Of a DNA stretch of 64,000 bases, positions 8,370 through 62,360 are shown one piece after another. The notes below the pieces were generated by a model, which was not told where the DNA came from, made no database searches, and was given only the letters and a program-made list of their open reading frames with translations. Source of the stretch: Thermogutta terrifontis (GTDB lineage Bacteria; Planctomycetota; Planctomycetia; Pirellulales; Thermoguttaceae); the NCBI RefSeq assembly GCF_002277955.1, contig NZ_CP018477.1, positions 4,423,206 through 4,487,205 of the forward strand, read 5' to 3'. How positions within the stretch are numbered: the stretch's first letter is position 1; each line of letters opens with the position of its first letter. The position numbers and the translations under genes are program-made.

Positions 8370-8666
8370 TCCCAGTTGATCGGCAAATGTCCGATATCTC
8401 CCGTGGGGCCCCGTTAGCTTCACACCACGTGGACGCAATCTCAGCAGACCGTGGACAACGGTCGGTCGCACGTCAACCCCGTTCCACAAGCCCCACGCTT
8501 CATCTTAACCGCTGTCATGAGATTTCAAAAGACGAAACGCAGCCGGCATTCACCCAATGCCCAACGATCGCGGAGGACAATCGGTCGCACGGTTCCGGCA
8601 CGGTAGCGGTTCGCGGCATGAACGGGCGCGATTGGTCGCTGGGACATGCCGCGCATTAACGATTCG

Positions 8667-42894: not shown

Positions 42895-42978
42895 TGCCTT
42901 ACTCCGCACCAAGAATTTCCGCTCGGAGGACCTCGAGAGGTGGGTCCGCCGAAATTGTTTTTTTGCGTCCCCCATCGG

Positions 42979-43007
42979 CTGATTCTCCGACCAGTTTTCG
43001 TTATACT
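42979..43007 (+). promoter_or_regulatory. Possible promoter of the DUF1080-ROK-GH172 unit
   Basis: A good -10 (TATACT at 43002) has only a weak -35 (CTGATT) 17 bases upstream. The position, 70 bases before the DUF1080 start, is suitable. Confidence 0.35.
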
Positions 43008-43078
43008 CTTGGGAAGTCGATGCGTTGGCTGGATAGGGTTGAAGCTTCCAAGAGTTTTCATTGTAAGGAGTCGCAGCC

Positions 43079-44950: not shown

Positions 44951-46978
44951 ATGATGCCGTTGAGACGACTTCCTGTTCTCGTCTGTGCAGCGCTGGTGCT
45001 GGGCGCATCAACTGGATGGGCACAGACCGCTTACACTTATCGCGACCTGCTCATGCAGATGCTTGATCCGCGGGCGCCGGCCGTTTTGCCGGCAGACGGA
45101 GAATACTGCAAGCAATGGTCAAGTTGGGATCGTGCCAGTCAGTACGACGAGGCAACCGGCAAATATATTAATTGGGCGGCCAATGGGGATGGTCATCACT
45201 TCATCCGTGAGGAAAACGGCATGGGGGTTCTGGCGGAGATGCAGGGGCCGGGATGCATCTGGCGTATCTGGTCGGCACTAGCCCAGGATGGACATGTCAA
45301 GATTTACTTGGACGGCGCGGAACAACCCGTTGTCGATCTGCCGTTTAAGAAATACTTCACGGGCGACACGCCACCATTTAACTACCCGCAACTTTCCTAC
45401 CACCTCGAAGATCAGGGGTGCCGCGGCCAGAATCTCTACATGCCTATCCCTTATCAGAAGTCCTGCAAGATTGTCGCGGAAAAAGGATGGGGCCGTTATT
45501 ACCACTTTGTCTATCGCACGTACCCGAAGGGTACACAGGTCCCCACCTTCAGCGCCCAGCTTGTGGCCCAACATGCTGACCTGCTGAAGAAGATCAACGA
45601 CTTCTTCGCCGAGAAGATGGGAGAATTGCCGCCGGTCTATGCGGGTATGGAACTGGAAACCCACGGCGGTGGTCTGGAATTGGCTCCCGGGGCTAAGGAA
45701 TCGCTCGAGCTTACGGGCCCTAAAGCGATTGTCGCCATCAAGGGGAAGATCAAGTGCGGAGATCGGGCCGACGAGATGGCGGCCCTGCGCCGCGTGGCGC
45801 TGCAAATCACCTGGGATGATCAACCCAGGCCTGCCGTGTGGTGCCCCGTGGGAGACTTCTTCGGCACGGCGCCCGGCTGGAACAAGTACAAGAGCTTCCT
45901 CACGGGCGTGACAGACGAAGGCGGCTACGCCTACTGGTACATGCCCTTTGCCAAGCGCGCGCGTATCGAGGTGATCAACGAGGACACCGTGCCGCGTCAG
46001 ATCGAATATAAGGTGATTGTGGCTCCTTTAGATCGGCCGTTTGAAGGGCTTGGCTACTTTCACTGCAAATGGCATCGGGACACCTTCGAGGTCCCACCCG
46101 ATCGCTGGCCAGACTGGTCGCTTCTCCACACCGAGGGGCGCGGCCGGTATCTTGGCGTGATGCTGCACGTGTGGAATCCTCTCGGTGGCTGGTGGGGCGA
46201 AGGAGACGAGAAATTCTTTGTGGACGGTGAAAAGTATCCGTCCACCTTCGGTACAGGCTCCGAGGACTATTTCGGTTATGCGTGGTGTGATCCACACCTT
46301 TTCCAGCGGGCATACCACTGTCAAACAATGACGCAGAACAACAAGGGGCATCAGTCGGTGTTCCGCTGGCAACTCGTGGATAACGTGCCCTTCCACACCA
46401 GCTTTGATGGCTACATCGAGAAGTACTTCCGTACCGAAGAACGCGGCACCCAGTATGCGGTGACCGTGTGCTGGTACCTTGATCCCCAGGGGAAGGACCC
46501 TTACGACCCGGTCCCCGTGGAACAACGTCACGATTACTACGTGAAAAAGGCGCTCAAGATTGCCGGCTTTCGCATTCTGAACGAGCCGCCGGGAAATCTG
46601 GAGGCCCAGGGAATGCAGCACTTTCCCCTCGGTAAATGGAGCAACAATGACCACCTGTGGTGGACGGGGGCCAAACCCGGCGATGTGCTGGAAGTAGGAT
46701 TCGAAGCCCCGAAAGATGGCAAGTATCAGGTGGCCGTCATCCTCACCAAGGCGCGGGATTATGGCATCGTTCAGCTTTCGATCAATGGCCAGAAGGCGGG
46801 CGATCCCATCGACCTTTACAATCCTGAGGTCATTCGTACCGAGCCCATCCCGCTGGGTACTTTTGAACTCAATAAAGGGGAGAATACGCTCCGCGTGGAG
46901 ATCGTGGGTGCTAATGAAAAGGCCATCAAAGCCTACATGTTCGGGTTGGATGATGTCGTCCTTACACCGATTGAGTAG
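44951..46978 (+). CDS. Secreted DUF2961 / GH172 family glycoside hydrolase
   Basis: The product has 675 residues from an ATG with AAGGAG seven bases upstream; a second ATG follows directly. A signal peptide (LPVLVCAALVLGASTGWAQ) is clear. The family signature GTGSEDYFGYAW lies at about residues 434-445, with the acidic pair E438-D439. GH172 members that have been studied act on alpha-fructofuranosyl or D-arabinofuranosyl bonds, and some form difructose anhydrides. The core is a double jelly-roll, and the C-terminal 130 residues form another beta-domain with YQVAVILTKARDYGIVQLSI. It is the last gene of the unit and is followed by a strong terminator. The substrate here is unknown. Confidence 0.9.
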   Translation: MMPLRRLPVLVCAALVLGASTGWAQTAYTYRDLLMQMLDPRAPAVLPADGEYCKQWSSWDRASQYDEATGKYINWAANGDGHHFIREENGMGVLAEMQGPGCIWRIWSALAQDGHVKIYLDGAEQPVVDLPFKKYFTGDTPPFNYPQLSYHLEDQGCRGQNLYMPIPYQKSCKIVAEKGWGRYYHFVYRTYPKGTQVPTFSAQLVAQHADLLKKINDFFAEKMGELPPVYAGMELETHGGGLELAPGAKESLELTGPKAIVAIKGKIKCGDRADEMAALRRVALQITWDDQPRPAVWCPVGDFFGTAPGWNKYKSFLTGVTDEGGYAYWYMPFAKRARIEVINEDTVPRQIEYKVIVAPLDRPFEGLGYFHCKWHRDTFEVPPDRWPDWSLLHTEGRGRYLGVMLHVWNPLGGWWGEGDEKFFVDGEKYPSTFGTGSEDYFGYAWCDPHLFQRAYHCQTMTQNNKGHQSVFRWQLVDNVPFHTSFDGYIEKYFRTEERGTQYAVTVCWYLDPQGKDPYDPVPVEQRHDYYVKKALKIAGFRILNEPPGNLEAQGMQHFPLGKWSNNDHLWWTGAKPGDVLEVGFEAPKDGKYQVAVILTKARDYGIVQLSINGQKAGDPIDLYNPEVIRTEPIPLGTFELNKGENTLRVEIVGANEKAIKAYMFGLDDVVLTPIE

Positions 46979-47043
46979 CGGGGCTTGCCAGTCCAGCAAC
47001 TGCGCTTCTTGCTGCAACTGAGTGAAGAGTCCAAGCTTTCCCG

Positions 47044-47071
47044 GGCTGCCGTTCATGCGGCAGCCTTTTTT
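47044..47071 (+). terminator. Strong rho-independent terminator inside the end of the flippase gene
   Basis: GGCTGCCG-TTCATG-CGGCAGCC is an eight-pair perfect stem followed by six T residues on the plus strand. It ends transcription from the GH172 gene. Its right part, from 47053, is also the 3' end of the convergent flippase gene and encodes its terminal KKAAA and stop. Confidence 0.92.
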
Positions 47072-48516
47072 ACAGAGATTGCCTGGGCAGACTCGTGCGG
47101 CACATTCAAGGCTCGCACCCAGGCGGAAACAATCACTGCCAAATAGAAGGGGAGCGAAACTGCCAGGGCCACCGCCAGGCCCAGCGCCGTCCCGCGCATT
47201 CCCCACCACGCGGTGAAAACCGGTGAAAGGATGAGCAGGACGAGCACGGTTACCCCCCGGATCACCATATGCTGTCGAAACGCCCCGAGGGATTCGACGC
47301 CGCGTCCCAGCACGCTGGTCATGAAGAGGATGCAGGCGGCCACCACAATCCAGCGTAGAAATGTCGGATCCTCGAGAATCCGCGGTGTGAGAATCAAAGC
47401 GAGCAGTTTTTGACCGATGACCGTCTCAACCAAGGCAAAAGGCAATAAGGCGAACAGGATTGTGACGCCCATGAAACGACTCAACAAAAAAACGTAGCGT
47501 CGAAGTTCCAGAGCGTGATAACACCGCGCCAGTCGGGGGGCGAGGGCGTTGGCCATCGCGCTCACAAAGAGCTGGCCTACCGCGGCCACCTGGAGGGCAG
47601 AAGCAAAGACGGCCAGAGCTTCTTCTCCCAAGGCCATATCCACCACGTAGCGTGGGATGTTGGTGATCAAATTGATTTCAAAATTGACCACTCCGGCGGG
47701 AAGGCTTTCCCAGATGATTTTGAGCCATCCGGCGTGCGGTCGCTGCCATTGAATGATTTCCACCGGTGTGGGAGGTGAAGAGTTGGAACCTGTCCCCGGA
47801 GCTCCTTGCGAAAGAACCATACCGGCAAGGAGGCGCGAAACGTGCGGCCGTGTCCATCCGAAAAAGACTGCCCCTGCCGCCAGAGCGTCCGCGCAAGCGG
47901 CTGCAAAGGCTCCTCCGCCCACTGCCAGTGCCCCCGCTATCACCACTAAACTGAGGCCATACCGCAGCAGGAAGCCCGCCCCGATCCGATCCATCCGCTC
48001 TTCCCGTTGCAGCACTGCATAGCCGATGTCGGCGAGAGAATCGAACATTCGGCCCGTGGCCACAATGAACACCAAACCGACGAAAGCCGGGTTCGCTGTG
48101 TACACCAGAGCGGCCAGCGGCGCAACAAGCCATGCCATACTAGCGCCGACGACTCGGATGGAAAAATAGTCCTGAAATGGAAAGCGACGTCGCACGTCGC
48201 ACACGAGAAGATTGCGAAGCCCCAATTCAAAAGCGGCGAAGATCGGCGTGCCAAGGGCCAACGCGGCGACCCACCGCCCGGCTTCCGCCAATCCTCCCAA
48301 CTTGATCAGAAGCACGAGAACGAGCAGCCTTGAGACCGCCTGAGTCACGTTACCGGAGAGATACCAGGCAAAGTTCTGCCGAATGGAAAGCGGCGGCAGG
48401 GCGGATGACTGGCGGAACGCCACAATACGGCACGCAGGTGTTTCTTCGGGGCTGTTCGCCGGTTTCGATGGAGACATGTTTTCTCTGTACCCGGCCTCGC
48501 AAGGAAGGCGATCCAT
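47053..48516 (-). CDS. wzx: Polysaccharide flippase (Wzx/MATE-like)
   Basis: The product has 487 residues and about twelve membrane helices, as in the oligosaccharide flippase superfamily. These proteins move undecaprenyl-diphosphate-linked repeat units to the periplasmic side of the inner membrane. The protein begins with a polar tail, then NFAWYLSGNVTQAVSRLLVL, the usual first helix region. The ATG overlaps the sulfotransferase stop by one base (TGATG), so translation is probably coupled; an ATG 13 codons later is the alternative. It is the last gene of the exopolysaccharide unit. Its extreme 3' end overlaps a terminator for the opposing operon. Confidence 0.85.
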   Translation of the reverse strand: MDRLPCEAGYRENMSPSKPANSPEETPACRIVAFRQSSALPPLSIRQNFAWYLSGNVTQAVSRLLVLVLLIKLGGLAEAGRWVAALALGTPIFAAFELGLRNLLVCDVRRRFPFQDYFSIRVVGASMAWLVAPLAALVYTANPAFVGLVFIVATGRMFDSLADIGYAVLQREERMDRIGAGFLLRYGLSLVVIAGALAVGGGAFAAACADALAAGAVFFGWTRPHVSRLLAGMVLSQGAPGTGSNSSPPTPVEIIQWQRPHAGWLKIIWESLPAGVVNFEINLITNIPRYVVDMALGEEALAVFASALQVAAVGQLFVSAMANALAPRLARCYHALELRRYVFLLSRFMGVTILFALLPFALVETVIGQKLLALILTPRILEDPTFLRWIVVAACILFMTSVLGRGVESLGAFRQHMVIRGVTVLVLLILSPVFTAWWGMRGTALGLAVALAVSLPFYLAVIVSAWVRALNVPHESAQAISVKKAAA

Positions 48517-49649
48517 CAGGGTTGAGCAGATTCCGAGACAGGCGATGATCCGGTCGATTGGCGATCGTGTGACGCGAGAAAGTGCGGTCCGGCAAGGGGG
48601 TGGCCGGTGGGTGGGGAGGTCATGCCGACGGGTTGATCAAGCTCTGACGCGGCAGGCCGGTAGTGATATCCATATGACCGAGCCTTCCAGCCTGCCAGGA
48701 GCCAAATCACCATTTTTTCCGCAAAGCTCAATTTCGACTGCCATTCAACGTCCGGTCTCAGTCGGATATGACGCTGCATTCGCAGGCGATTCCCTGCCAC
48801 GATATGACCGGGTTCGATCGGCCTATCAGAATGGAGAAGCTCTACCCACGGACCAGGCGGAATGGCGATAAAGCCTGCAAGCTGAAGCACGACCGGAGTC
48901 GGCTCGCTCACAAAGTCTTCGTAACGGACCAGAAGAGATCGACTTGTTTCGTGACGCCGCCGGACAAGATCGGCCATACTATTGACGAAGGTCCACGCCA
49001 GAGCGCTCCTCCAAACCGGCAAACCGCGGATATCGTGGGCAACTCCCGCCTGCTCGTCCGAGCGAAAACTCTTTTTGACAGACCAGGCAAAGCCCCGCAC
49101 ATCACGCACAAGATGAACCAGGTGCAGATCGATCAGGTCCAGGCGTTCCGCCATGAGAACCAGCGCCAATCCCCGGGCGGGATTCTTCGACGAATCCACC
49201 ACCACGATCTTCTCCGTCACTTCGCAGATCGCCTGATAAAGCCCGGCGGTCCACTGGGCATAGGTAAGAAAATTTCCCCGCACGTCCTTACCGAGCTGCA
49301 CCTGCTCGGGCGAGGGTCGAGAGAACATCTGCCACAGAACGCTCCGACGCTCCTCCACACGGTTTCGCAACTCTTCATAGGCCTCCAGATCGACCTGGGA
49401 CCGTTTTTTCCACAACTCGGTGACGCGAGACCAGAGTTCGCATTCCGGGACACGTTGTCCACAGGAGCAAAGCCGCCGCTCGATCCAACCGTCGTGTACA
49501 AAGTTGCACAGCTCTCCCACGCTCTGGACAAGCGGATGCTGCCCCAGAAAGAGGTCGAGCACGGTCGAACCGCTCCGTCCGGCCCCCATAATGAACACCA
49601 CATGGGGACGCTGAGGAATTCGCGAGGATGGCTGAGCGTGCGCAGGCAT
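48516..49649 (-). CDS. Sulfotransferase in the exopolysaccharide locus
   Basis: The product has 377 residues. The 5'-phosphosulfate site GAGRSGSTVLDLFL sits near the N-terminus, and VHLVRDVRGFAWSVKKSF (about residue 165-185) matches the region that holds the 3'-phosphate of PAPS. Such enzymes move sulfate from PAPS to a hydroxyl group, often on a sugar. There is no membrane helix, so it would act in the cytoplasm before flipping. The ATG giving MPAHAQPS was preferred over one six codons upstream because AGAGGA lies nine bases before it. The stop overlaps the flippase start. Between CapD and Wzx, it probably sulfates the lipid-linked repeat unit; a different acceptor cannot be excluded. Confidence 0.9.
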   Translation of the reverse strand: MPAHAQPSSRIPQRPHVVFIMGAGRSGSTVLDLFLGQHPLVQSVGELCNFVHDGWIERRLCSCGQRVPECELWSRVTELWKKRSQVDLEAYEELRNRVEERRSVLWQMFSRPSPEQVQLGKDVRGNFLTYAQWTAGLYQAICEVTEKIVVVDSSKNPARGLALVLMAERLDLIDLHLVHLVRDVRGFAWSVKKSFRSDEQAGVAHDIRGLPVWRSALAWTFVNSMADLVRRRHETSRSLLVRYEDFVSEPTPVVLQLAGFIAIPPGPWVELLHSDRPIEPGHIVAGNRLRMQRHIRLRPDVEWQSKLSFAEKMVIWLLAGWKARSYGYHYRPAASELDQPVGMTSPPTGHPLAGPHFLASHDRQSTGSSPVSESAQP

Positions 49650-49729
49650 GATACCGTTTCCTCTCATTGGTCACTATGCAGCGTGATTTTTTTGATTGCA
49701 GTCCTTATGGCACGTAGGTAACTTCTTTT

Positions 49730-51898
49730 TCATGCAGCCCGGCGGACAGCGGGAATTTCCGGCTGACCCTGCGGACAATAATTTGGAACGATTCGCTGAA
49801 GCTCGGCAATGACTTGGCGGTCGTCGGCTTCTAAAAATCGCGACAGCCGGTCTATTGCGCGAAGGATCGCCTCCCGATTCACACGGGGACTGACAGCCAC
49901 CCGAATCTTCTCGTGCCGTGTGGGGATCGTCTTTTCGTCGGCGGCCTGAAGCTCTTCAAAAAGTTTCTCTCCCGGCCGAAGCCCGACCACCTCGATTTCG
50001 ATATCCCGACCGACTTCCAAACCAGAAAGGCGGATCATGTCCACGGCCAGGTCCACAATCCGGACCGGTTCGCCCATGTCGAGAACCATGATCTGACCAC
50101 TTTCACCGATGATGCCCGCCTGAATCACCAAACCGGCAGCCTCGGGGATTGTCATAAAGAAACGCTCCATGCGGGGATCGGTGATGGTCACCGGACCGCC
50201 TTCCGCAATCTGCTGGCGAAAAATCTGCACCACACTGCCCGCGGAATCCAGCACATTTCCGAAGCGAACCGTTACAAATCGGCAGGGTGACACCTCGCGC
50301 ATGGATTGGACATACATTTCCGCCACGCGTTTGCAGGCCCCCATCACGCTGGTGGGATTGACCGCCTTGTCGGTGGAAATCATCACGAACGATTCGGCTC
50401 CGTGCTGATGGGCGAGATCCGCCACATTGCGCGTGGCAAGGATGATGTTTTTGACCGCTTCCCCAGGATGCGCCTCCAACAATGGCACATGTTTGTAAGC
50501 CGCGGCATGGAACACGACGTCGGGTCGATACCGGGCAAAGAGGTTGTCCATCCGCCGACAATCGAGGACGTCAGCCAGAAGGACAGCAAGCTGGGTACGA
50601 TGAACGCTTCCTGAAGTGCTAGCCAGGTGTTTCAGCTCGCGCTCGAGAAAAAACTGTCCGGTCTCGCTCCGGTCCACTAAAACCAGACACTTGGGATGAA
50701 AGCGAACGAGTTGCCTGGCGATTTCTGACCCAATGCTGCCCGCGCTGCCTGTCACCATCAGCACACGATCTTCCAGCCAATGCCGCAGGTTTTCCCATTC
50801 CAGAGCGACGGGATCGCGGCGAAGAAGATCCGTAATGGCGATGGGCCGGGGCTGGACCGAAACGCGTCCGGAAAGCAGTTGCTCGTAACTGGGAAGGACC
50901 TGAACGTGGATTCCTGTTTCCCTCGCTTCTTCCATCAAGCGGCGGATTTCACGTCCGCTGAGCGAGCCGCCTGCCAGGAAAACGTCCTTGACACCGAGTT
51001 TCTGGGCTAGCTCACAAGCTTGCTCCACGGTTCCGATGACGGGAACGCCCCCGATGCGTGTTCCGACCCGTCCCGCCTGCCGATCAATAAAGCCCACAAC
51101 ACGATAGCGGCAGGAAGAATGCCGATTGATCGCCCGGAGAAGATCCTCTCCCGCCTCGTCCGCTCCCACGATGAAAACCGGTGGATCATTGCTGAAGAAA
51201 TTTTGCCAGGTTCGATCGCGAATTGCCCGCACGATCGCCCGGACTCCGCCCAGAATGAGCACGGTGTTTCCCCAATCAATGAGGAGAATCCCCCGCGGAA
51301 CCATGCGGGGCGGGAGAAAAAAGCGATCGAAAATGACAACCGCCGCCAGCGCAGCCGTGCTCGCTTCAACCAGCACCAGAAGATCATAAAAGCTGAGAAA
51401 CCTGGTCCAACTCCGGTGAATCCCAAAAGCTACAAAGACGAGAAGCTTGATAGCAACCACATAGGGAAGGGTCGTCCAAAACCACCGCAGGACTTCCCCC
51501 TGGTTCAGGCCGTCAAATCGCAGGTGAAAGGCACACAGGTAGCTTGCCACCAGGCCTACAACCAGCGCAGCAACGCCCAGCAAACTCTTTCCCAAGCTGG
51601 CCGGTGTGGCGGGTCGCCCGGTCGAGAATCGCACCCGCCGAAAAACTCCCCAGTCCCTTTTCCTGAGGAGGCGCCTCACCGTGACGACTGCGCTGCGGAT
51701 TTTACCACAGCCACTCTTGAACTTGCTGGCGATTGAATCAGCATAACCGGCCCGGCCCCGCGGCTGGGATTCATTTTCTTCGCCGGAAAAACACTCCGAC
51801 CCTTCCTCCCCGCGGACAACTCGCAGGTCGGGCGTCCGAGTGAATGGGACAATACCACGATCCTGATCAGATTGAGAACCTGTTCCGGAAATAGTCAC
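49730..51898 (-). CDS. Long-form nucleotide-sugar 4,6-dehydratase (CapD/WbpM family)
   Basis: The product has 722 residues. An N-terminal tail of about 100 residues is followed by four membrane helices (about 105-225), a first Rossmann part (VFIVGADEAGEDLL, residue 241) and the catalytic NAD domain from about 380, with VTGSAGSIGSE (G384-G390). The catalytic set S508, M519, K523 (ISTDKAVNPTSVMGACKR) is that of UDP-N-acetylglucosamine 4,6-dehydratases. The product of such enzymes is the start of routes to deoxy- and diamino-sugars. The GTG start follows GGAGG by five bases. It is in the middle of the exopolysaccharide unit. The exact product made here cannot be read from sequence. Confidence 0.93.
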   Translation of the reverse strand: MTISGTGSQSDQDRGIVPFTRTPDLRVVRGEEGSECFSGEENESQPRGRAGYADSIASKFKSGCGKIRSAVVTVRRLLRKRDWGVFRRVRFSTGRPATPASLGKSLLGVAALVVGLVASYLCAFHLRFDGLNQGEVLRWFWTTLPYVVAIKLLVFVAFGIHRSWTRFLSFYDLLVLVEASTAALAAVVIFDRFFLPPRMVPRGILLIDWGNTVLILGGVRAIVRAIRDRTWQNFFSNDPPVFIVGADEAGEDLLRAINRHSSCRYRVVGFIDRQAGRVGTRIGGVPVIGTVEQACELAQKLGVKDVFLAGGSLSGREIRRLMEEARETGIHVQVLPSYEQLLSGRVSVQPRPIAITDLLRRDPVALEWENLRHWLEDRVLMVTGSAGSIGSEIARQLVRFHPKCLVLVDRSETGQFFLERELKHLASTSGSVHRTQLAVLLADVLDCRRMDNLFARYRPDVVFHAAAYKHVPLLEAHPGEAVKNIILATRNVADLAHQHGAESFVMISTDKAVNPTSVMGACKRVAEMYVQSMREVSPCRFVTVRFGNVLDSAGSVVQIFRQQIAEGGPVTITDPRMERFFMTIPEAAGLVIQAGIIGESGQIMVLDMGEPVRIVDLAVDMIRLSGLEVGRDIEIEVVGLRPGEKLFEELQAADEKTIPTRHEKIRVAVSPRVNREAILRAIDRLSRFLEADDRQVIAELQRIVPNYCPQGQPEIPAVRRAA

Positions 51899-52008
51899 GG
51901 CAACCTCCGTTGCTGCCGATGGAACGGGACATCCTTTTCCCGAGTTAATCCATATCCGAAGCCGTCCTCCGGAACAAGGGCATTAAATGAACCCGTCTGC
52001 CTTCAACT

Positions 52009-54918
52009 TCAACGACTCCTCCCAAAACCAGCAATTTCCCCGCCCGGCATGCGCGCCAGCCGCTCCGCCTCCAGCCGTTTGCTCGCTACGTCCTGGAGCC
52101 GCTTCTGCAGGGCCCGATGTCCCGGACGCCGTTGCACGCACCACCGGAGATGTTCTTCCGCCTCAGCGTACATTCCCACCTTTTCCAAGCTGATCGCCAG
52201 GTAGTAGCGCGCTCGATAACTGGCGGGATTGGCACGCACCGCCTCCCGAGCACAGGCGATGGCCTGTTCCTCATCGCCCGCATCCTGGAAGAGAAAGTAC
52301 GCCTCCAACCAGAGATTGCTCCGTTCCTCCGACGCAACTTCATCTCTCGAGAGTGCCGCCTGAAGTGCCGAGGCATAAGTCCGCTGCAGCCGCGTTAACA
52401 TCTCCGGAGGATACCGCTTCCGATAGAGCCGATACATCAGTCTCAGCGATTCTAGGTCCGGCTCGAACGTCTCCAGGAGAAACGCGATTTCCTGATCAAC
52501 CAGCTCCGGCGGAGATCGGCCCACCAGAAAGCGCAGGAGGCGTTCCCGATACCAGGGGCCGCAGGAAAACGCCTTGCGCCACAGGGCAATGCCGTCCTCA
52601 AGCCGCCCTATAAATGCAAACTCAGCACCGATACGGAAGAGCAGGTCACCGTCATTCGGACGGACCGCCAGTGCCTGCTCGTACCATGTGAGGAGCGTTC
52701 CTTCGGATTCCCCACGCAAGAAAGACGTTTGCCCGAGAATAAAGTAGGCCTCCGCTTGCAGGGGACACAACCGGCAGGCAATCAACGATTCTTCGGATGC
52801 CCTGTCCAGCAATTCGACGTGATCCCCAAACGCGGCCCGCAGCCAGGATCTCAATTCCTGAACGGACGCAAACTGCGCATGAAGTGCTGCATCGCGAATC
52901 TGAGAGAGCGGCATTGGGTTGGCACAGCACGACTGCTGAAGATGGAACAACCGAAGGTAAGCCTTGGCCAGCCGCAGATGAGCCTCCGCGCGTTTCGGAT
53001 CAAGACGCACGACATCCTGAAGACACCGAATCATTTCCCACTCTCGCTCAATTGCCTCCTTCAGTTGCTGGCCGAAAACTCCCTCCGGAGATTGGATTTC
53101 GGCGGGAGAAAAGGAATAGGTCCGGTCCGCCTGTTCTCTGTTTTCGGCGTCTTCATTCGGGATCGCGTCAGCACTGGCCGCCAAATCGGCCTGTGCATTC
53201 CCTCCCAACGCTTCTGTGCTGTCCAAATCCTGCACCGTTGCGGATTTGTCTTCACCCCGGAACAGTTCCTCGATATCGCCACTCTGCCGATAAAGGATAA
53301 GATAGCGATGCCAGGCCAGTTCCGCGAAACCGGCTCGGTATCGCTCCGTAAGAATCGGGGCTACTATAGGCAGGCTCAGCACCACGGCTAGCGATAACCC
53401 GAGTACGGGGAGAGTCAGCCGAGGCCTTCCTGTTTGAGCCAGTTCGGTCGCGCTGAACGGCTTTTGAAAAGTGGTTTGTGGGACGCTGGCAGACCTCACG
53501 CCGAGTCGTGCCAGTGCCGCAAGACACCCCGCAAGCACGCTGACCACGCCCGCGAGTGCCGGATTGTACCACACGTAATCCACCAGCCCATGCAGTGTAA
53601 AGGCGAGCAATCCCCCCGCAATGACAGCCGCCCCCGTGCGATGCCGTGAATCGCTGGCCTGTATCACGGCAACCCATGTCCATCGGGCAACCAGAATCAA
53701 TCCCGCCAGCAAGATCAGGAAGCCAGGCAGGCCGGTTTCCAACAGGACCTGAAGAAAACCGTTTTCGGCGTGCGTGTAATAGTGCCCGCTGTACCGCGCG
53801 CTCTGATAATGGGGATGAACGACCGAAAAACTGCCGATTCCGCTGCCGGTCATCCAGAAATCCCGGGCCGCGCGCCACGTGTTCTGCCACACATGCGTTC
53901 TGGCCTGAGCTGAATCGATCTCAGACCATTGGAACCGGAACACCCCCTGCCATCGTGCGGTGACTGTTTGCGGCCCAATGATGGCAATTGCCGGAGCAAT
54001 TACTGCCAGTCCGACGAGTGCGATCCACATCCACCGGCCACGAACCGCCCCGGCCCCAGCCAGCGCGACGCCGGCAACCAGCGCTGCCACCAGCGAGGCG
54101 GTAATCCCTCCCCGCGAAAATGACAGCAGCAATGCCACCACCACAACCGGGACAGCCATCCAGCACAGAAGATGCTGCTCCACAGCCGAATCGGTCGAAA
54201 AGCTGCCCGTCTTACTCGACCGTTTAGCCCGATCAGCAGGGCGTCTGTAGAGCAACCACCATAAGAGAGGCCCCATCCCCAGAGCAATGAATTCCGCAAA
54301 ATGGTTGCGATTGACAAAGCTCCCCTTAACAGCGTCCCGAGTATGGGCAAACGGATGCTCATAAAACCAGAAGAATTTTCCGTTCGCAAAAAGATATTGA
54401 AGCAATCCAAAGCCAGCGACCACCACTATTCCCAAAGCAATAAACCGTAGATAGTGTTCCACATGTTCTATTTTCTGAATGCGATAAACCGTGGTCGCAA
54501 ATAGGAAACTGTATCCAATCCACAATCCCAAACCGGGGCGCGTTTCCTGCGGCGCCAAACTGATGGTGCGCCACTCGCCCAGTACCGAAGCCGTGGCAGG
54601 ACTCCGCCAGCCGGGCAGCAGATGATCCATGTGGGGTGAAAGCACATGCAACCAACCCGCAGGAAGCGGGCAGAGCTGAATGATCCCCAGCAAAACACCG
54701 CCGACGAGCACCCATTCCGCACCGCCCAGACGAACCGACCGCCTGGACAGGATGCCAGCCACCGCAGCCAGACTCGCGCTCATCAGAGCGGTGGCCAGCA
54801 GGACAGCCTCCGCCCACGGGCTGCGCCCGCCAAGCAGCAGGACTGTCAGCGCCAACCCGACAATCAGAACACCATCTGTTATACGGTGGATTAAAGAAAT
54901 AACCGCTTTATTGTGCAT
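52009..54918 (-). CDS. wzy: O-antigen polymerase/ligase (Wzy-like) fused to C-terminal TPRs
   Basis: The product has 969 residues. About twelve membrane helices fill the first half. The Wzy_C signature lies in the loop around SGIGSFSVVHPHY and HAENGFLQVLLETGLPGFL. Such proteins link repeat units to a growing chain, or ligate it to a carrier. The second half, from about 560, is periplasmic and helical with several TPR units (for example AEAHLRLAKAYLRLF and AEAYFILGQTSFLRGE). A low-complexity acidic segment lies at the join. The ATG has no obvious ribosome binding site. With Wzx, Wzc and Wza encoded beside it, polymerase is the more likely role; ligase is the alternative. Confidence 0.9.
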   Translation of the reverse strand: MHNKAVISLIHRITDGVLIVGLALTVLLLGGRSPWAEAVLLATALMSASLAAVAGILSRRSVRLGGAEWVLVGGVLLGIIQLCPLPAGWLHVLSPHMDHLLPGWRSPATASVLGEWRTISLAPQETRPGLGLWIGYSFLFATTVYRIQKIEHVEHYLRFIALGIVVVAGFGLLQYLFANGKFFWFYEHPFAHTRDAVKGSFVNRNHFAEFIALGMGPLLWWLLYRRPADRAKRSSKTGSFSTDSAVEQHLLCWMAVPVVVVALLLSFSRGGITASLVAALVAGVALAGAGAVRGRWMWIALVGLAVIAPAIAIIGPQTVTARWQGVFRFQWSEIDSAQARTHVWQNTWRAARDFWMTGSGIGSFSVVHPHYQSARYSGHYYTHAENGFLQVLLETGLPGFLILLAGLILVARWTWVAVIQASDSRHRTGAAVIAGGLLAFTLHGLVDYVWYNPALAGVVSVLAGCLAALARLGVRSASVPQTTFQKPFSATELAQTGRPRLTLPVLGLSLAVVLSLPIVAPILTERYRAGFAELAWHRYLILYRQSGDIEELFRGEDKSATVQDLDSTEALGGNAQADLAASADAIPNEDAENREQADRTYSFSPAEIQSPEGVFGQQLKEAIEREWEMIRCLQDVVRLDPKRAEAHLRLAKAYLRLFHLQQSCCANPMPLSQIRDAALHAQFASVQELRSWLRAAFGDHVELLDRASEESLIACRLCPLQAEAYFILGQTSFLRGESEGTLLTWYEQALAVRPNDGDLLFRIGAEFAFIGRLEDGIALWRKAFSCGPWYRERLLRFLVGRSPPELVDQEIAFLLETFEPDLESLRLMYRLYRKRYPPEMLTRLQRTYASALQAALSRDEVASEERSNLWLEAYFLFQDAGDEEQAIACAREAVRANPASYRARYYLAISLEKVGMYAEAEEHLRWCVQRRPGHRALQKRLQDVASKRLEAERLARMPGGEIAGFGRSR

Positions 54919-54981
54919 TGGTCAACCATAGTTTTTATCCGCTGCTATCTATCCACATAACACGGCTGTCATAATACCGAA

Positions 54982-57264
54982 TCACGCAACGCGCCGCGGA
55001 ACAGTCCGCTCTGGAGTCGAGATTGATTCGGTGATCTCAGGGACTTCCTTTTCTTCATGGCTTTCATCAGGCTGACCATAGTAGTCGCCGGAATAGCCGC
55101 TGTAATCTTTTTCTTTTTCATTGGATAGTCTGTTAATCACGATGCCGAGTAACGGAATCTTTAAAAGGGCCAGGTATTCGGCAGCCCTGATGACGGCGCG
55201 CCGTTTATTCTTCTCGGGTTGCAGAACCAGGATGACACCATCCGCAAGGCGTCCCCAGATGGCGGTATCGCTGGCAAGGGGAGCAGGAGGACTGTCGATG
55301 ATGACCTGGTCGTAGTGCTCGACCGCCCAGTTGAGAAGTTCCGCCGTACGAGGTCCAGCAAGCAACTCAGCAGGATTGGCCGGCCGACGCCCGCAGGGAA
55401 GGACGTCCAGGTCCGGCACGATGTTCTTTTTGAGACGAGCTTGGATGGCCTCGGCGATCGGGGCGGTATCGCGCAGCACCTCGGAGATGCCCGGTTCGCC
55501 CCGCAAGCCGAGAAGCTGGGTGAGACCGGGACGCCGCAAGTCGCCATCCACCAGCAACGTGCGTTTTCCCACATGTGCATAGGTGAGAGCGAGATTGGCG
55601 GAAACCGTGGATTTGCCGTCGCCCGGCTGCGTGCTTGTGACGACAACCGCCCCGGTTGGCCGATCGCTCAGTGCCAGGGCCGTCCTGAGCGTGCGGAAGC
55701 TTTCGCTGGCCGGGCTGTTGGGATCCGCCACTACCTCGAGAACTTCCACACCTTCACCCTCGCGTGGAGGCATCTCTCGAATGATGCTGAGCACCGGCGC
55801 GCGAAGCTGCCACTGGATCTCTTCAACGCTTCGGAATCGATCGTCGAGCACGTCCATCACATACACGACAAACATCCCCAGCGTCAAACCTCCCAGAATC
55901 ACCATGATCAACACACGCGGGAGACTGGGCGACACGGGCGAACGGTTTTCCCTGGGCTCGGTAATCACCGAAGCGCGCAAATCCCCGGCCAGGTCAAGAC
56001 TCGTAATCCGCCGGACCAACCCTCCGTAGAGTTCGCGTAATCCGGTAATGTCGTTTTTGAGCATCTCCAGTTGAGCAAGACCTCCCGCGAGATTGGCTGC
56101 CTCCTGCCGGGCCAGTTCGTACTGAGCCTGAAGCGACATTTCTTTCTGCCAGAGTTCATTCACCCGTTGACGAAGCGTACCCAACAGCATCTGGCTGAGT
56201 TCGGGGATATTCAGGTTGTCGAGTCTCGCCCGGAGACGATCCTGATAAGCCAGAAGAAATGCCTCGTTTGCGGCAATTCGTTGCTGCAGTGCCTGGACCC
56301 GCGGATGATTATTCCCAAATTCCTGAAGCAGACGTGCCAGCTCCACGCGATCCTCGACCACCTTTCTTTCGACTTCCAATCGGGCAGCCGTTTCTTCCCG
56401 GCTGAATCCCAACACACCCAGGAGAATCTGCTGACCGAGGGTGTCGTCTGCCGCAAAAAGATACTGGCGAATATCCGCCCCCTGCTGGACGGCGTTTTCC
56501 AACGCTTGAAGCGAGGCAGCCAGTTGCACGCGTTCTTTTTGGACCTCCACGAGGGCCTGGTTGAACGCCTTGGCCCTTTCCACGAGGGGGTGAACGGTCT
56601 GGGAATTGACACCCACGTCGAGGGCCCCGATTTGCTGGCTCAATTGCTGCAGGGCCTGTTCCTTTTCGCTCAACCGGGCGGCAATGTCATCTTTCTCTGT
56701 GGTCAAAATGCGAATGATTTCAGCGGTGGTACCCTGGGTCGTGCTTCGCATGAAATCCAGGTAGGACTGCACGACGGCGCCGACGATCCGAGCGGCCACA
56801 CCCGGATCTTTAGAACGATATTCGACAGTAATAATATTCGTGCGGTACACGGCGCTGGCCGCCAAATTGCGCCGCAGTCCCTCCACCCACGTTTCGGGCT
56901 TGTCCATATTCAGATCGACAGCGAGGTCCTCCCGCGACAATTTCTGGATTGCTCCTTCCAGAACCTTGGCACTTGTGATGAGATTAACAAACGTGGGGAT
57001 GAGGCTGTTTTCGCGACTGCCCTGGGCCTCAATCGTCGGCGAAAGCGCGTTATCTCCCGTTTGAAGTATAAGTAGTTCAGCTTTCGCGGAATAAATTCTG
57101 GGTGCTGTTGCATAATACAGCGCGCCAAGAAGCGCAACGGCCAGAAAAGCGCCCAGCATGATCTGCCACCGGCGCCTGACCGCCACGAGAAATTGGGCGA
57201 TTGCATGGAGAATGTGTGAGGCAGAGTCAGGAACCGCCCATTGAATCCAGGAACTTTCGTTCAT
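54982..57264 (-). CDS. wzc: Tyrosine autokinase and chain-length regulator (Wzc type)
   Basis: The product has 760 residues. A first membrane helix (about 35-55), a long periplasmic coiled-coil Wzz-type region (to about 430) and a second helix (LPRVLIMVILGGLTLGMFVV) are followed by a bacterial tyrosine kinase domain. Walker A is QPGDGKST (K551), Walker A' is LLVDGDLRRP and Walker B is VIIDSPP (about 654-660). A tyrosine cluster near the C-terminus (Y721, Y724, Y728, Y729) is the normal site of cycling autophosphorylation that controls polymer length. The acidic tail after it is longer than usual. The protein works with Wza to export the polymer. The ribosome binding site is weak. Confidence 0.95.
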   Translation of the reverse strand: MNESSWIQWAVPDSASHILHAIAQFLVAVRRRWQIMLGAFLAVALLGALYYATAPRIYSAKAELLILQTGDNALSPTIEAQGSRENSLIPTFVNLITSAKVLEGAIQKLSREDLAVDLNMDKPETWVEGLRRNLAASAVYRTNIITVEYRSKDPGVAARIVGAVVQSYLDFMRSTTQGTTAEIIRILTTEKDDIAARLSEKEQALQQLSQQIGALDVGVNSQTVHPLVERAKAFNQALVEVQKERVQLAASLQALENAVQQGADIRQYLFAADDTLGQQILLGVLGFSREETAARLEVERKVVEDRVELARLLQEFGNNHPRVQALQQRIAANEAFLLAYQDRLRARLDNLNIPELSQMLLGTLRQRVNELWQKEMSLQAQYELARQEAANLAGGLAQLEMLKNDITGLRELYGGLVRRITSLDLAGDLRASVITEPRENRSPVSPSLPRVLIMVILGGLTLGMFVVYVMDVLDDRFRSVEEIQWQLRAPVLSIIREMPPREGEGVEVLEVVADPNSPASESFRTLRTALALSDRPTGAVVVTSTQPGDGKSTVSANLALTYAHVGKRTLLVDGDLRRPGLTQLLGLRGEPGISEVLRDTAPIAEAIQARLKKNIVPDLDVLPCGRRPANPAELLAGPRTAELLNWAVEHYDQVIIDSPPAPLASDTAIWGRLADGVILVLQPEKNKRRAVIRAAEYLALLKIPLLGIVINRLSNEKEKDYSGYSGDYYGQPDESHEEKEVPEITESISTPERTVPRRVA

Positions 57265-57514
57265 AGGCTCTTTTTTAATTTTAAATTTGATTTAGACTGC
57301 GATTTTCTTGTTGTGATGTCTGAGCCATTACAATCTATGCACAATTCCAGGATGCCGGGTTAATAAACATTCCCATTCCTCCCTCATGTCTTCAGTTACT
57401 TGTGTGCGAGATACAAGGCCGTCCGATTATTAAACGATCTTAGATAATCGACTTATTTATCGTGTCCGATCCATCGGTGTATCGTGACGTACAAGTTCGA
57501 CTATTTTTATGCAC
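57265..57514. other. AT-rich gap between wza and wzc
   Basis: This gap of 250 bases is visibly richer in A and T than its surroundings. CGATTAT (57424-57430) and ATAATCG (57444-57450) form a seven-base inverted repeat with a 13-base spacer. Runs of T and A lie just before the wzc start. A regulatory or processing site for uneven expression of wza and wzc would fit, but no clear promoter or terminator was seen. Confidence 0.45.
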
Positions 57515-58663
57515 TCAGTTTAAGGGCACAGTGCCACCGACGTGGACAAAACCTTTGAGCAGGTTGTAAACAAACGTTCCAAATGTCTCCTCCACAGTGA
57601 TGACATCCCCGGGGGCAATGCGGAGGTTTTCTGCCGGGTTCTTGGCAGCCGTGCGGAGGTTCGCCCGAATGAGCACAGGTTCGCTGCGTCCGCGTATTTG
57701 CCGCACGATCCACACCTTCTCCGCCAGCGGATTGGAACAACCGCCAGCGAGGGCAATGGCATCCAGCAGCCGCAGATCCTGCGCTGCCGGAAAGTCATAC
57801 ATGCCAGGCTTATTGACAAGTCCATCAACATAGATGGGATCGAGTTTTCGCGGGGGCACGAACACCACGTCTCCATCCTGAAGCCGGTATTCCTGGAGGG
57901 ACTGATCGTTCTGCCCAGCAGATCGCAGGTCCACCTTGATGGACTCGCCAGGCGCGGTCGCCTCCGTGAAAGAGGTTAGCTGGCCTGGGGCGTTTCCCAC
58001 TTTGGAATCGAAAGCCGGCGCGAGGGAGCCCGAAGAACCAGATCGGCGAATTTCCACGATCGGGTCCGCATCCGGTTTCAATCCTTCGGCCTGAACCAGA
58101 GCCGTCAGGAGGTCGGCCTGGGCAGCCGGAATATCGTACACACCGGGTTTTGCCACGGCCCCGGCTACCGTAATTCGGTAGGTTCGGGACTGCACACGTT
58201 TGATTGTGACCGTTGGCCGACGGTAAACGTCCCGCTCAATAGCGGCCTGGGCAATGGCCCTTTCCGCATCAGGAAAGCGCATGCCACCAACCATCACCTT
58301 CCCGATAGGGGGGACCTGAATATTGCCCTCGTCGTCCACCCGACAGGAAATAGCAGTATCCTTAATATCAAGGCCGGTGAGGACACTTACTTCCAGAAGA
58401 TCGCCCGGCATGATAACGTCGCTCGGTGCCTGAACACTGGCCAACTGCGGCAGGGCCACGTCTCGAATATCAGTCACCGGCGGCGGTTGAAGTTCCACCG
58501 GAAGAGCGCGGGCTTTGTACACCATCCGGGAGGCGCATCCGGCGCAGAGGAGTCCGAGTACGAAAACGAGCAGGCTGCCTTCAATATACCGAGGCCTGTC
58601 TTTCGGAACGGGTGATATGGAAAGGGTGGCCGCCGTTGGTTGCTGATTGCCGTCATCTCGCAT
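57515..58663 (-). CDS. wza: Polysaccharide export outer-membrane lipoprotein (Wza type)
   Basis: The product has 382 residues. A hydrophobic stretch ends in LCAGC with the lipidated cysteine at residue 43; about 26 polar residues come before it, an unusually long n-region. The export domain (about 85-170, with VIMPGDLLEVSVLTGLDIKD) and soluble ligand-binding beta-grasp repeats (for example RTYRITVAGAVAKPGVYDIP and PIYVDGLVNKPGMYDFPAAQ) match Wza. This protein forms the outer-membrane exit channel for the polymer, joined to Wzc. It is the first gene of the exopolysaccharide unit. No helical C-terminal pore segment like that of E. coli Wza is obvious after the last beta-grasp repeat, a feature shared with several related export proteins. 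Confidence 0.93.
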   Translation of the reverse strand: MRDDGNQQPTAATLSISPVPKDRPRYIEGSLLVFVLGLLCAGCASRMVYKARALPVELQPPPVTDIRDVALPQLASVQAPSDVIMPGDLLEVSVLTGLDIKDTAISCRVDDEGNIQVPPIGKVMVGGMRFPDAERAIAQAAIERDVYRRPTVTIKRVQSRTYRITVAGAVAKPGVYDIPAAQADLLTALVQAEGLKPDADPIVEIRRSGSSGSLAPAFDSKVGNAPGQLTSFTEATAPGESIKVDLRSAGQNDQSLQEYRLQDGDVVFVPPRKLDPIYVDGLVNKPGMYDFPAAQDLRLLDAIALAGGCSNPLAEKVWIVRQIRGRSEPVLIRANLRTAAKNPAENLRIAPGDVITVEETFGTFVYNLLKGFVHVGGTVPLN

Positions 58664-59159
58664 GGGATTGTACCGGTGGTTCCGCGAAAACCCTCACAAG
58701 TACCAGCTTGCTTTCGGGAAAATTTGCGCGTGATTGTGGCGCGAATGGTTCCCGGGTCAGTCCCGTCAAAAGCGATTTAGCCGTCGGCAACGCCGGGCTA
58801 ACGCCCACTCCATGCCGAAGCTCCGATGGCCCCGTAGGAGGGGGTAGATACTCAAAAAGATGCCCGATCGTCAACAGCAAAAACCGACTTTTGGAAACAA
58901 GGAAAACTGGACAAACCGCGTTTTCCCAGGCATGCGCCGGTCGCCCACCACGGTTGCCAAGGCTGCCCCATCGCCGGTAAGCTTACGGTTTAAGGCCCTG
59001 AACTGCCCGCCACCGAGCTTCAGAGCGCAAATTTTTTCGGTGTGCGGGGTAAGGTATGAAAGTTAGGAAAAGGAAGCGGTGTTAGGGAAAGAACTCGTCC
59101 CCTGCCGCGTGACGGAGCTTCGTGAATAGCACAACGGATTGAAGGAAGGAGGAAACTGA
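58664..59159. other. Divergent intergenic region upstream of the exopolysaccharide locus
   Basis: This should contain the promoter for the whole wza-to-wzx unit. The best minus-strand match is TTGACG with a poor -10 (ATTCGC) 17 bases away. A GC-rich imperfect repeat (AGCCGTCGGC and CCGGGCTAACG) lies at 58781-58804. No reading frame with a ribosome binding site was seen. A leader this long could carry regulation. Confidence 0.4.
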
Positions 59160-59909
59160 GTGATCATCGCTGCAACCACCCGGTGTTTTGCCAATCTCCC
59201 ACTGGAAGCGGCGTTCGAACGTCTCAATGATCTCGAATTCACGCATGTGGAAATCATTGCCCATGAGACAGAAGGGCACCTGAAACCGTCAGAAATCGCG
59301 GCTGACCTGGATCGGGCGATTGCCATTTGCCGTAATACCCATCGCCTGACTCCGGTGGCCTACAGTGTGGACATTGAAGCGCAGGGGGAAGAGTATTACC
59401 GGCAATTCGCCGCCTGCTGCAAACTGGCCAAGGCAACGCGGGTGGTGACGGTGGTGGTCCGTGCTTCCGAACTGGGAACGCCGTTTAACGAGGAAGTGGA
59501 GCGGCTGCAACGGATGGTGGCGATTGCCGCTATGGAGGAGGTTGTCGTGGCCATGCTCGTCGAGACTGGCCGCATGAGCGAATCACCAGAAACCGCCGCC
59601 GTGCTCTGCCATCACGCCAAAGGACTTGGCATCTGCCTGGATCCCAGCTACTTCATATACGGTCGGGCGTCCCCCCCCAGTATGGAGCCGATCCTTAAAT
59701 ACGTGCGGCACGTCCGACTGCGCGACACCAAAAAGGACCGCTTTCAGGTGAGAGTGGGCCAGGGAGAAGTGGAGTACAGCAAGCTTCTTGCCAATCTCAG
59801 CCGGTACGAATACGATCGGGCCCTTTCGATCGACATCCTTCCCGAGCCAGGCGTGGACCAAAACGCCGAACTCCGGAAATTCCGGCTCCTTTTGGAAACA
59901 CTTCTTTGA
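59160..59909 (+). CDS. Sugar phosphate isomerase/epimerase-like TIM-barrel protein
   Basis: The product has 249 residues. The start is GTG with AGGAGG seven bases upstream. The xylose-isomerase-like barrel (PF01261) is recognisable: the first strand at MIIAATTRCF, THVEIIAHETEGH, the metal-site regions VAMLVETGRMSE and GICLDPSYFIYG, and HVRLRDTKKD. The usual histidine in the HLKD position is replaced (VRLRD), so the metal set may be altered. Members isomerise or epimerise sugars and related compounds. It is a single gene divergent from the exopolysaccharide unit; no substrate can be inferred. Confidence 0.85.
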   Translation: MIIAATTRCFANLPLEAAFERLNDLEFTHVEIIAHETEGHLKPSEIAADLDRAIAICRNTHRLTPVAYSVDIEAQGEEYYRQFAACCKLAKATRVVTVVVRASELGTPFNEEVERLQRMVAIAAMEEVVVAMLVETGRMSESPETAAVLCHHAKGLGICLDPSYFIYGRASPPSMEPILKYVRHVRLRDTKKDRFQVRVGQGEVEYSKLLANLSRYEYDRALSIDILPEPGVDQNAELRKFRLLLETLL

Positions 59910-61232: not shown

Positions 61233-62360
61233 ATGCTCCATGCGGTGATTTTGGCTGGGGGATCCGGAACCCGCCTCTGGCCGGAGAGTCGCGCCGCCCG
61301 TCCCAAGCAACTCCTGCCCATCGGGGGAGAGAAAAGTTTACTCCGGGCCACGGTGGATCGCGTTCTGCCGCTGGTTCCTCTGGATCGTATCTTCGTGGCG
61401 ACGAGCAAAGATTTAGCGCCTGCAATCGCGGAAGAGCTGTCTTTTCTTCCCCGGACGGCGATCCTAGTGGAACCGGCTCCCCGCAACACGGCACCGTGTT
61501 TGGGCCTGGCCGCCGCTCGGCTTCTGCGGGAAGACCCGGACGCGATCATGGCGGTGTTGCCCGCCGACCATGTGGTGTCGCCGGATGAAGCGTTTATCCA
61601 GGATTTGCAAACCGGCGTGCGGCTGGTCATGGAAGATCCTCGGCGGTTGGTGACGTTCGGCATCCCGCCTACATATCCCTCACCCTCTTTCGGCTACATT
61701 GAGCGCGGTGAACCTCTGGCTCTTCCCGAGAGCAGTAAACTTGAGGAGCCCGTTCGGACGGAGACAGCGCCCCAACACCGAATATTTCAGGCGCGACAGT
61801 TCTGGGAAAAGCCATCTCGGGAAACGGCTCAAAAATACCTGGAAGCCGGTACTTTCTACTGGAATGCGGGCATTTTTGTTTGGAAGGCCGCCACTTTGTG
61901 GCAGGCGCTGGAGGAGTACTGTCCGGAAGTTTTTCAGCCCCTTGCCCGAATTGCCGCAGCCGCTGACTCACCCCGATTCGGCGAGATTCTGGAATCCGAA
62001 TTCCAGCAGATCAAAAGCATCTCCATTGACTATGCGGTGATGGAAAAGGCAAACAATGTTGTCGTGATCGAGGCGACGTTTCGCTGGGATGACGTTGGTG
62101 GTTGGCGGGCACTGGAGCGGCTGCTGACCGTGGATGAGAGAGGTAACGTCGCTGATGCCCCGCGGGTGATCTTTTGGGATGCAGATGGCACGATCGTTCA
62201 CAGTCGCCGGGATGACCATCTTATCGCCACGCTGGGGGTCAAAGACCTGGTTGTTGTGGTCACTCCGGACGTCACACTTGTGGCTGACAAAAATCGCGAG
62301 GAAGATGTTCGCAATCTTCTGAAGGAGCTGGAACGGCGGGGATGGCGGGAGTATTTGTAA
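61233..62360 (+). CDS. manC: Mannose-1-phosphate guanylyltransferase
   Basis: The product has 375 residues. It makes GDP-mannose from mannose 1-phosphate and GTP. The nucleotide site is LAGGSGTRLWPESRAARPKQ at the N-terminus; VEPAPRNTAPCLGLAAARLL and AVLPADHVV follow, all typical. The C-terminal domain is the short left-handed helix type, so the protein lacks the mannose-6-phosphate isomerase half found in longer ManC enzymes. GGGAG lies nine bases before the ATG. GDP-mannose could feed the exopolysaccharide locus or the GT2/GT-C set; the gene stands alone between DUF4261 and scpA. Confidence 0.95.
   Translation: MLHAVILAGGSGTRLWPESRAARPKQLLPIGGEKSLLRATVDRVLPLVPLDRIFVATSKDLAPAIAEELSFLPRTAILVEPAPRNTAPCLGLAAARLLREDPDAIMAVLPADHVVSPDEAFIQDLQTGVRLVMEDPRRLVTFGIPPTYPSPSFGYIERGEPLALPESSKLEEPVRTETAPQHRIFQARQFWEKPSRETAQKYLEAGTFYWNAGIFVWKAATLWQALEEYCPEVFQPLARIAAAADSPRFGEILESEFQQIKSISIDYAVMEKANNVVVIEATFRWDDVGGWRALERLLTVDERGNVADAPRVIFWDADGTIVHSRRDDHLIATLGVKDLVVVVTPDVTLVADKNREEDVRNLLKELERRGWREYL

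Follow-up and report, generated by a model that had tools for sequence, protein, structure and literature searches.

Comparison with described sulfated exopolysaccharide loci

Loci for sulfated exopolysaccharides (EPS) are an already known kind of gene cluster, and the six-gene block considered here, located on the minus strand at positions 47053-58663 of a 64,000-nucleotide stretch of the Thermogutta terrifontis chromosome (NZ_CP018477.1, positions 4,423,206 to 4,487,205; this whole stretch is hereafter the window), is a variant of it, ordinary in kind but unusual in that it would form just the end, for flipping and export, of a pathway dispersed over the chromosome. Comparative analysis suggests, with a probability that we put at about 0.6, that the block provides export, sulfation and flipping for a Wzx/Wzy EPS pathway, the other genes of which are spread across several sites of the T. 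terrifontis chromosome.

Synechan, encoded by the xss genes on pSYSM of Synechocystis PCC 6803, is likewise a Wzx/Wzy EPS with sulfotransferases encoded in the cluster and an OPX export gene apart on the chromosome, and its sulfate has been measured, but its cluster contains eight glycosyltransferases (GTs), the priming GT among them (PMC8205485). Of the two xss sulfotransferases (XssA and XssE, named by record order), one gave no meaningful match to the sulfotransferase (ST) of the block and the other 39 bits (A2 profile), compared with 321 bits for the ST of Sinorhizobium meliloti, and neither xss enzyme has the motif C-x-C-G...C..W (CxCG; C67, C69, G70, C76 and W79 in the block ST) of the block ST subfamily. 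On this comparison the block ST is distinct from both synechan sulfotransferases and not orthologous to them. The product of HB773_24280 on p_2 of S. meliloti RCAM1750 belongs to the same ST subfamily (34% identity over 320 aa, with the CxCG motif), and its region similarly encodes a CapD-like protein (35%), a sugar transferase, an O-antigen ligase-domain protein, GT4 enzymes and a lipopolysaccharide biosynthesis protein; it differs in that the genes lie together on a megaplasmid and the ST is not beside the putative flippase. At the edge of this region (L260), about 12 kb from the ST, is cysQ, which would fit recycling of 3'-phosphoadenosine 5'-phosphate.

The wps-1 cluster of Actinoplanes missouriensis is also a Wzx/Wzy cluster, with two sulfotransferases (WpsB and WpsH) that are both needed for normal sporangium formation and for which sulfation has been proposed; it belongs to a Gram-positive host (PMC13390465). 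Vibrio sp. KMM 8419 and Cobetia marina KMM 1449 have ST genes and capsules of chemically determined sulfated polysaccharide, but their clusters are of the ABC-transporter type with 3'-phosphoadenosine 5'-phosphosulfate (PAPS) genes in the cluster (PMC11641403, PMC11766843). Within the PVC (Planctomycetes-Verrucomicrobia-Chlamydiae) superphylum, Pontiella produces glycosaminoglycan-like exopolymers, with a sulfotransferase in a GT-rich cluster and sulfated EPS measured, but that cluster has eight possible GTs and sulfation is mainly N-sulfation (PMC7356697). Polysaccharide sulfotransferases have been reviewed, with Mesorhizobium KpsS and NodH among those named (PMC11625862). Regarding planctomycetes, a Shark Bay study reports that some Planctomycetes genomes have sulfotransferase genes, whereas most orders lack them (PMC9723792). 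The main text of the T. terrifontis R1 genome paper mentions neither exopolysaccharide nor sulfotransferase (PMC5673643), and two papers on sludge and Planctomycetes have no bearing on the locus (PMC10483923, PMC4807772). Searches of an open-access library on planctomycete or Thermogutta sulfotransferases, flippases and sulfated exopolysaccharides brought up no description of this pathway.

Gene content of the block

An earlier note on the window had described six co-directional Wzx/Wzy-type genes lacking a phosphoglycosyltransferase (PGT) or GT, and both statements hold, as the families and gene ends agree and no PGT or GT catalytic domain was detected in any of the six proteins with curated family models. 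The first gene (57515..58663) encodes a Wza-type exporter with Poly_export (PF02563, 61.8 bits) and two SLBB families, whose orthologue in G003, a genome of the same genus, is 54% identical and also the first gene of its block. It is followed by the gene for a 760-aa Wzc-type co-polymerase and tyrosine autokinase (54982..57264; TIGR01007, 151.7 bits against a cut-off of 108, and PF02706 Wzz), which is 61% identical to its G003 counterpart and, among 37 genomes searched, matches 26 at E<=1e-40, the T. terrifontis genome included. The third gene (52009..54918) encodes a 969-aa polymerase/ligase-like membrane protein with Wzy_C (PF04932, 71.5 bits, cut-off 31.7), 11 hydropathy segments and a tail of TPR families at residues 630-941. 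The membrane-bound nucleotide-sugar 4,6-dehydratase of 722 aa (49730..51898) has the full CapD/WbpM-type domain set, Polysacc_synt_2 (PF02719, 353 bits) and CoA_binding_3 (PF13727), with 3 hydropathy segments and identities of 62% and 63% to the orthologues in G003 and in G002 of the same genus, and scores far below the cut-offs of the PseB and FnlA equivalog models.

The last two genes encode the 383-aa PAPS-type ST (48516..49667; Sulfotransfer_3, PF13469, 54.2 bits, cut-off 27), with no transmembrane segments by hydropathy, and a 487-aa Wzx/MATE-type flippase (47053..48516; MatE, PF01554, 31.5 bits, cut-off 24.9) with 9 hydropathy segments and an uncertain start, possibly up to about 40 codons downstream. 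All of Wzx, Wzy, Wzc and Wza of the Wzx/Wzy pathway are thus present above curated cut-offs, the MatE margin being modest. Judged by gene content, the six genes form a genuine block for the export, and probably also the sulfation, of a surface polysaccharide.

The sulfotransferase-flippase pair

In a search of 60 genomes, that of T. terrifontis included, 11 had a match to the ST at E<=0.001, and the surroundings were read in ten of these (all except G013). A flippase gene lies directly beside the ST gene in seven of the ten, downstream in T. terrifontis, G002, G003, G015, G018 and G019 and upstream in G039 (PF01943, 28.7 bits, cut-off 28.2). The contigs of G004 and G050 end on the downstream side of the ST, and the ST of G008 (23% identity) has no flippase beside it. 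The tie between ST and flippase asserted earlier is therefore borne out, the two genes adjoining in all seven loci, from five genera and two families, in which ST identity is at least 29% and the flippase-side flank is on the contig. The very near relative G001 has contigs ending inside the flippase and inside Wzy, and an ST of this genome may have dropped out between contigs. Within the genus, G003 has all six genes in identical order, G002 has CapD-ST-Wzx on one contig, and no contig break separates CapD from ST in any of the three genomes where the junction is visible (window, G002 and G003).

The tie had been argued from a one-base overlap. The first flippase ATG does share one base with the ST stop (TGATG) at 48516, so the overlap stands if this start is used, but it is not a conserved feature, since the gap between the two genes as given by the gene caller is 92 nt here and about 50-133 nt in five other genomes. 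A second in-frame ATG lies 13 codons downstream, and BLAST alignments of the flippase to five relatives start at its residue 11 to 40. As evidence for coupling the overlap was ruled out, because it hinges on the choice of start codon and the gap is not conserved.

Regarding the ST itself, residues G33, S34, T35, R188 and S196 are invariant in a 10-row alignment, and we take them to be the 5'-phosphosulfate (5'-PSB) and 3'-phosphate (3'-PB) binding sites. An AlphaFold model (pLDDT, predicted local distance difference test, of 77; seven-row alignment) has sulfotransferases as its best fold matches, among them the CurM and olefin-synthase domains as well as tyrosylprotein sulfotransferases, the latter at a Foldseek E of 4e-8 and 15% identity; the protein thus models as a PAPS sulfotransferase. 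For PAPS supply, T. terrifontis has one strong APS kinase match (212 bits).

Relatives of the ST were also sought more widely. When 397 genomes of the class were searched with a profile, 25 had matches at E<=1e-20, T. terrifontis included, 17 of them from a single family (f22), and in the stretches fetched around these 17 loci no flippase was found near the ST in 15 (L093-L107), though a few have GT matches. From a scan of GTDB species genomes, 80 of 114 relatives were kept, from Planctomycetota, Alphaproteobacteria, Actinomycetota, Chloroflexota, Bacteroidota and other groups, although at least 14 of the 80 probably repeat records already among the genomes above, so that not all are independent. 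A flippase match of at least 60 bits is present in the fetched stretch of 40 of the 80 (adjacent in 9 and elsewhere in the locus in 31, by a rough rule that misfiled at least L152 and with many contigs short), a further 11 have at least two other polysaccharide matches, and 29 have neither. The CxCG motif was found by regular expression in 73 of the 80 and is absent from two other T. terrifontis sulfotransferases that were checked; its role is perhaps metal-binding or structural. A tree of 35 relatives groups the three sequences of the genus (99/99) and leaves the deep forks open. Among plasmids, 81 records match the ST, 74 of them from Sinorhizobium, while a search of phages gave no match.

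The fold matches to tyrosylprotein sulfotransferases and the flippase-free loci of family f22 would also suit an ST whose sulfate goes to a different acceptor, for example a small glycolipid or protein tyrosine, its place next to Wzx being accidental. This seems improbable, given the direct adjacency of ST and Wzx in five genera with differing flanks and the 51 of 80 relatives, not all independent, that have a flippase or at least two other polysaccharide matches.

The Wza-Wzc-Wzy-CapD module

The neighbourhoods of Wzc relatives were read in 15 further stretches out of 40 listed places, together with five other loci. Outside the genus, the order Wza-Wzc-Wzy-CapD was found in G004 (where the contig ends in CapD), G013, G015, G018, G021 and G042, and the 16-20 kb stretches carrying it in G013, G015 and G018, of three sister genera, had no flippase or GT match. 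The module is therefore a recurring unit and not a peculiarity of the T. terrifontis block, and the oddity that the earlier note had implied for a block lacking GTs falls away. In G021 the module, which has no ST, directly continues into Wzx and GT4 genes; in G042 nothing was recognised after CapD, and a PGT and a GT4 gene lie divergently upstream of wza. Partial forms are Wzc-CapD without a called Wzy (G005, G007 and G017) and Wza-Wzc-Wzy without a called CapD (G008 and G016), as seen with a gene caller that was trained on window genes and missed both the Wzy of the G015 module and one T. terrifontis PGT (at 0.81 Mb, see below). As read from gene order, the block is composite, with the conserved Wza-Wzc-Wzy-CapD module as one unit and a separate ST-Wzx pair as the other.

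This composition invites the view that two independent systems abut, the module exporting one polymer while the ST-Wzx pair serves a polymer made by GTs and a Wzy encoded at 3.21 Mb (see below) and exported by another Wza/Wzc. It would agree with the location of module and Wzx cluster on different contigs in G013, G015 and G018, with the presence of an own Wzy at 3.21 Mb and with a second Wzc-like gene (23%) at about 2.48 Mb. We nevertheless regard it as unlikely, though a serious contender. No Wza/Wzc match was found in the Wzx-cluster stretches (11 to 20 kb each) of G013, G015, G018 and G019, which therefore need an exporter from elsewhere; the CapD-ST junction is intact in every genome of the genus where it is visible, and the G021 module runs straight into Wzx and GT4 genes.

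Candidate repeat-unit genes elsewhere on the chromosome

In three sister genera the ST-Wzx pair is linked to a triplet of repeat-unit genes. The clusters of G015 and G018 have the order ST-Wzx-AsnB-GT4a-Wzy-GT4b-dehydrogenase-ST2 and that of G019 the order ST-Wzx-GT4a-Wzy-membrane protein-GT4b (L031-L033), an AsnB-like gene thus lying between Wzx and GT4a in two of the three. In G039, from another family, the order is Wzc-PGT-Wzx-ST-Wzy-GT4, with a full-length WbaP-type PGT. Comparison of the sister-genus triplets with all 6 Wzy_C places and 20 of the 27 PF00534 (GT4) places of T. terrifontis identified an orthologous GT4a-Wzy-GT4b triplet at 3.209-3.213 Mb (identities of 38-42% for GT4a, 30% for Wzy and 37-40% for GT4b), whose order is kept in G001, G002 and G003. 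In whole genomes, GT4b was searched in 15 chosen for carrying ST, Wzx or Wzc relatives, with matches in nine at E<=1e-20 and in eight at E<=1e-30 (four of the genus, G013, G015, G018 and G019); it is on the Wzx contig in the latter four, together with the ST in three of them, and on another contig in G001-G003. An ST2 orthologue (49-50%) stands alone at 1.105 Mb.

Regarding initiation, T. terrifontis has three PGTs, all of which were compared with the PGTs of the Wzx clusters of relatives. Those of G005, G013, G015 and G016 are 54-63% identical in the catalytic domain to a short PGT at 0.809-0.810 Mb, as against 39-45% to the other two. The short PGT has a PylC-like ATP-grasp, a HAD protein and a methyltransferase as neighbours, which recur in G003 at 50-54% identity, and the G013 Wzx cluster likewise keeps PGT, PylC-like ATP-grasp (29%) and HAD (39%). 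Because iterated profiles served to detect flippases, GTs and PGTs, weak matches to them (e.g., 'PGT' on CapD) are unreliable. On these comparisons the initiating PGT of the pathway is probably the short 0.81-Mb gene. The PylC-like ATP-grasp adjoining this gene (L024:8189-9496), as in G013, hints that the first sugar may carry an amide-type decoration.

Initiation of the same pathway could alternatively fall to the full-length WcaJ-type PGT which, with a GT4 neighbour, lies at 3.441-3.444 Mb. It is well above its cut-off (TIGR03023, 554 bits against 411), the pair is kept in G001 and G003, and G039 has its full-length PGT between Wzc and Wzx-ST. That the Wzx-cluster PGTs of four same-family genera are nearest to the short 0.81-Mb gene makes this assignment doubtful, and the WcaJ-type PGT could instead partner a separate locus, about 10 kb distant, that encodes a flippase-GT4 fusion. 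This 1010-aa fusion (L141:15743-18775) belongs to a second Wzx/Wzy-like region and combines a GT4 domain with a flippase domain (PF01943, 42 bits).

The expectation that the repeat-unit genes sit elsewhere is thus supported, orthologues of the sister-genus partners being located at 3.21 Mb and 0.81 Mb, unlinked. The further proposal that nearby manC, epimerase and GT2/GT-C genes build the unit did not survive. Three of them do exist within the window, manC at 61233-62360, the epimerase at 31799-32740 and GT2 at 6212-7240, while the GT-C candidate (ORF 7179-8489) has LPG_synthase_TM as its sole match, below the cut-off of that model. Their distances from the block are, however, 2.6, 14 and 40 kb for manC, epimerase and GT2, and the 36.9-kb contig carrying the block in G003 has no manC or GT2 match at E<=1e-5, its epimerase matches being to CapD only. 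With the sister-genus partner orthologues placed elsewhere, a role of the nearby genes as repeat-unit builders is highly improbable, and they were rejected as candidates.

Proposed pathway

Genes that sister genera keep linked are found in four places of the T. terrifontis chromosome, and the pathway would draw on at least three places. The short 0.81-Mb PGT, with its ATP-grasp, HAD and methyltransferase neighbours, would load the first sugar on undecaprenyl phosphate, and GT4a and GT4b (3.209-3.213 Mb) would extend the lipid-linked sugar, CapD providing a 6-deoxy-4-keto sugar precursor. PAPS is cytoplasmic. The block ST is predicted to be cytoplasmic and is tied to a flippase, and its simplest action would therefore be on the lipid-linked unit before flipping, by transfer of sulfate from PAPS; the adjoining Wzx would then flip the sulfated unit. 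Polymerisation would be carried out by the 3.21-Mb Wzy, the 969-aa protein or both, and Wzc and Wza would set the length of the polymer and export it. The 969-aa protein may be something other than the dedicated polymerase, given that a Wzy is already encoded within the 3.21-Mb triplet. Sequence itself establishes the gene families, the conserved ST-Wzx adjacency, the conserved Wza-Wzc-Wzy-CapD module and, in three sister genera, the intact linkage of ST-Wzx to GT4a-Wzy-GT4b. The joint action of the dispersed genes, the sulfate acceptor, the order of the steps and the sugars are as we infer them.

Several points weigh against this pathway. The sulfated polymer is predicted from genes alone, and the T. 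terrifontis genes are unlinked, their joint action being deduced from relatives. In G013, where the Wzx/GT4 cluster is present, the ST search gave no more than a weak match (E 1e-4), which lies on a different contig, and sulfation would therefore be optional, while in G004 (82% complete) the ST is at a contig end and no GT4b match was found. The ATP-grasp pair of T. terrifontis and G013 is only 29% identical, and the best T. terrifontis AsnB homologue in the compared stretches (38%) lies at 1.286 Mb, apart from the rest. The WcaJ-type PGT at 3.441-3.444 Mb is a rival initiator, and the PGT of G039 is of the full-length WbaP type.

A bolder reading, offered tentatively and with the odds against it, is that the CxCG-motif sulfotransferases are an unnamed bacterial subfamily for lipid-linked units and that in Thermoguttaceae sulfation acts as a checkpoint, Wzx flipping only or mainly the sulfated unit.

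Block boundaries and other features of the window and genome

On one side the block is flanked by a divergent gene at 59160, on the other by a convergent gene that ends at 46978. The divergent intergenic region upstream of wza (58664..59159) is the presumed promoter region by gene arrangement, and a terminator-like hairpin on the plus strand (47043..47066; 10-pair stem with T tail, a consensus match only) lies at the convergent 3' edge. No minus-strand terminator-like site was detected within the intergenic gaps of the block. In a scan of 46850-59300, terminator-like sites numbered 26 against 13.7 expected, mostly inside genes, and sigma70-type promoter sites 0 against 4.1 expected. An Rfam scan of the window gave no match, and the long window ORFs at 4246-5784, 26990-28135, 28132-29625, 36387-37598 and 41041-43230 had no Pfam match at E<=0.001.

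Elsewhere in the genome, GT-rich regions at 4.159-4.180 Mb (L021-L022) and 2.44-2.48 Mb (L026/L138) each contain PF13469 sulfotransferases. L026 has a confirmed ABC-2 permease, while the ABC genes of L021-L022 are a reading of protein starts. Several sulfated polysaccharides may thus be made by T. terrifontis.

Implications for Thermogutta and related planctomycetes

Planctomycetes are better known as degraders of sulfated polysaccharides, and the analysis provides a concrete candidate pathway by which a thermophilic member of the phylum would make one. A Wzx/Wzy pathway split over a chromosome would be recoverable via relatives, and the lack of a glycosyltransferase in a locus is easily mistaken for an incomplete system. 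The CxCG ST subfamily might help to flag loci for sulfated polysaccharides across several phyla, and sulfation as a checkpoint, if true, would explain why the ST-Wzx pair stayed together while the other repeat-unit genes moved.

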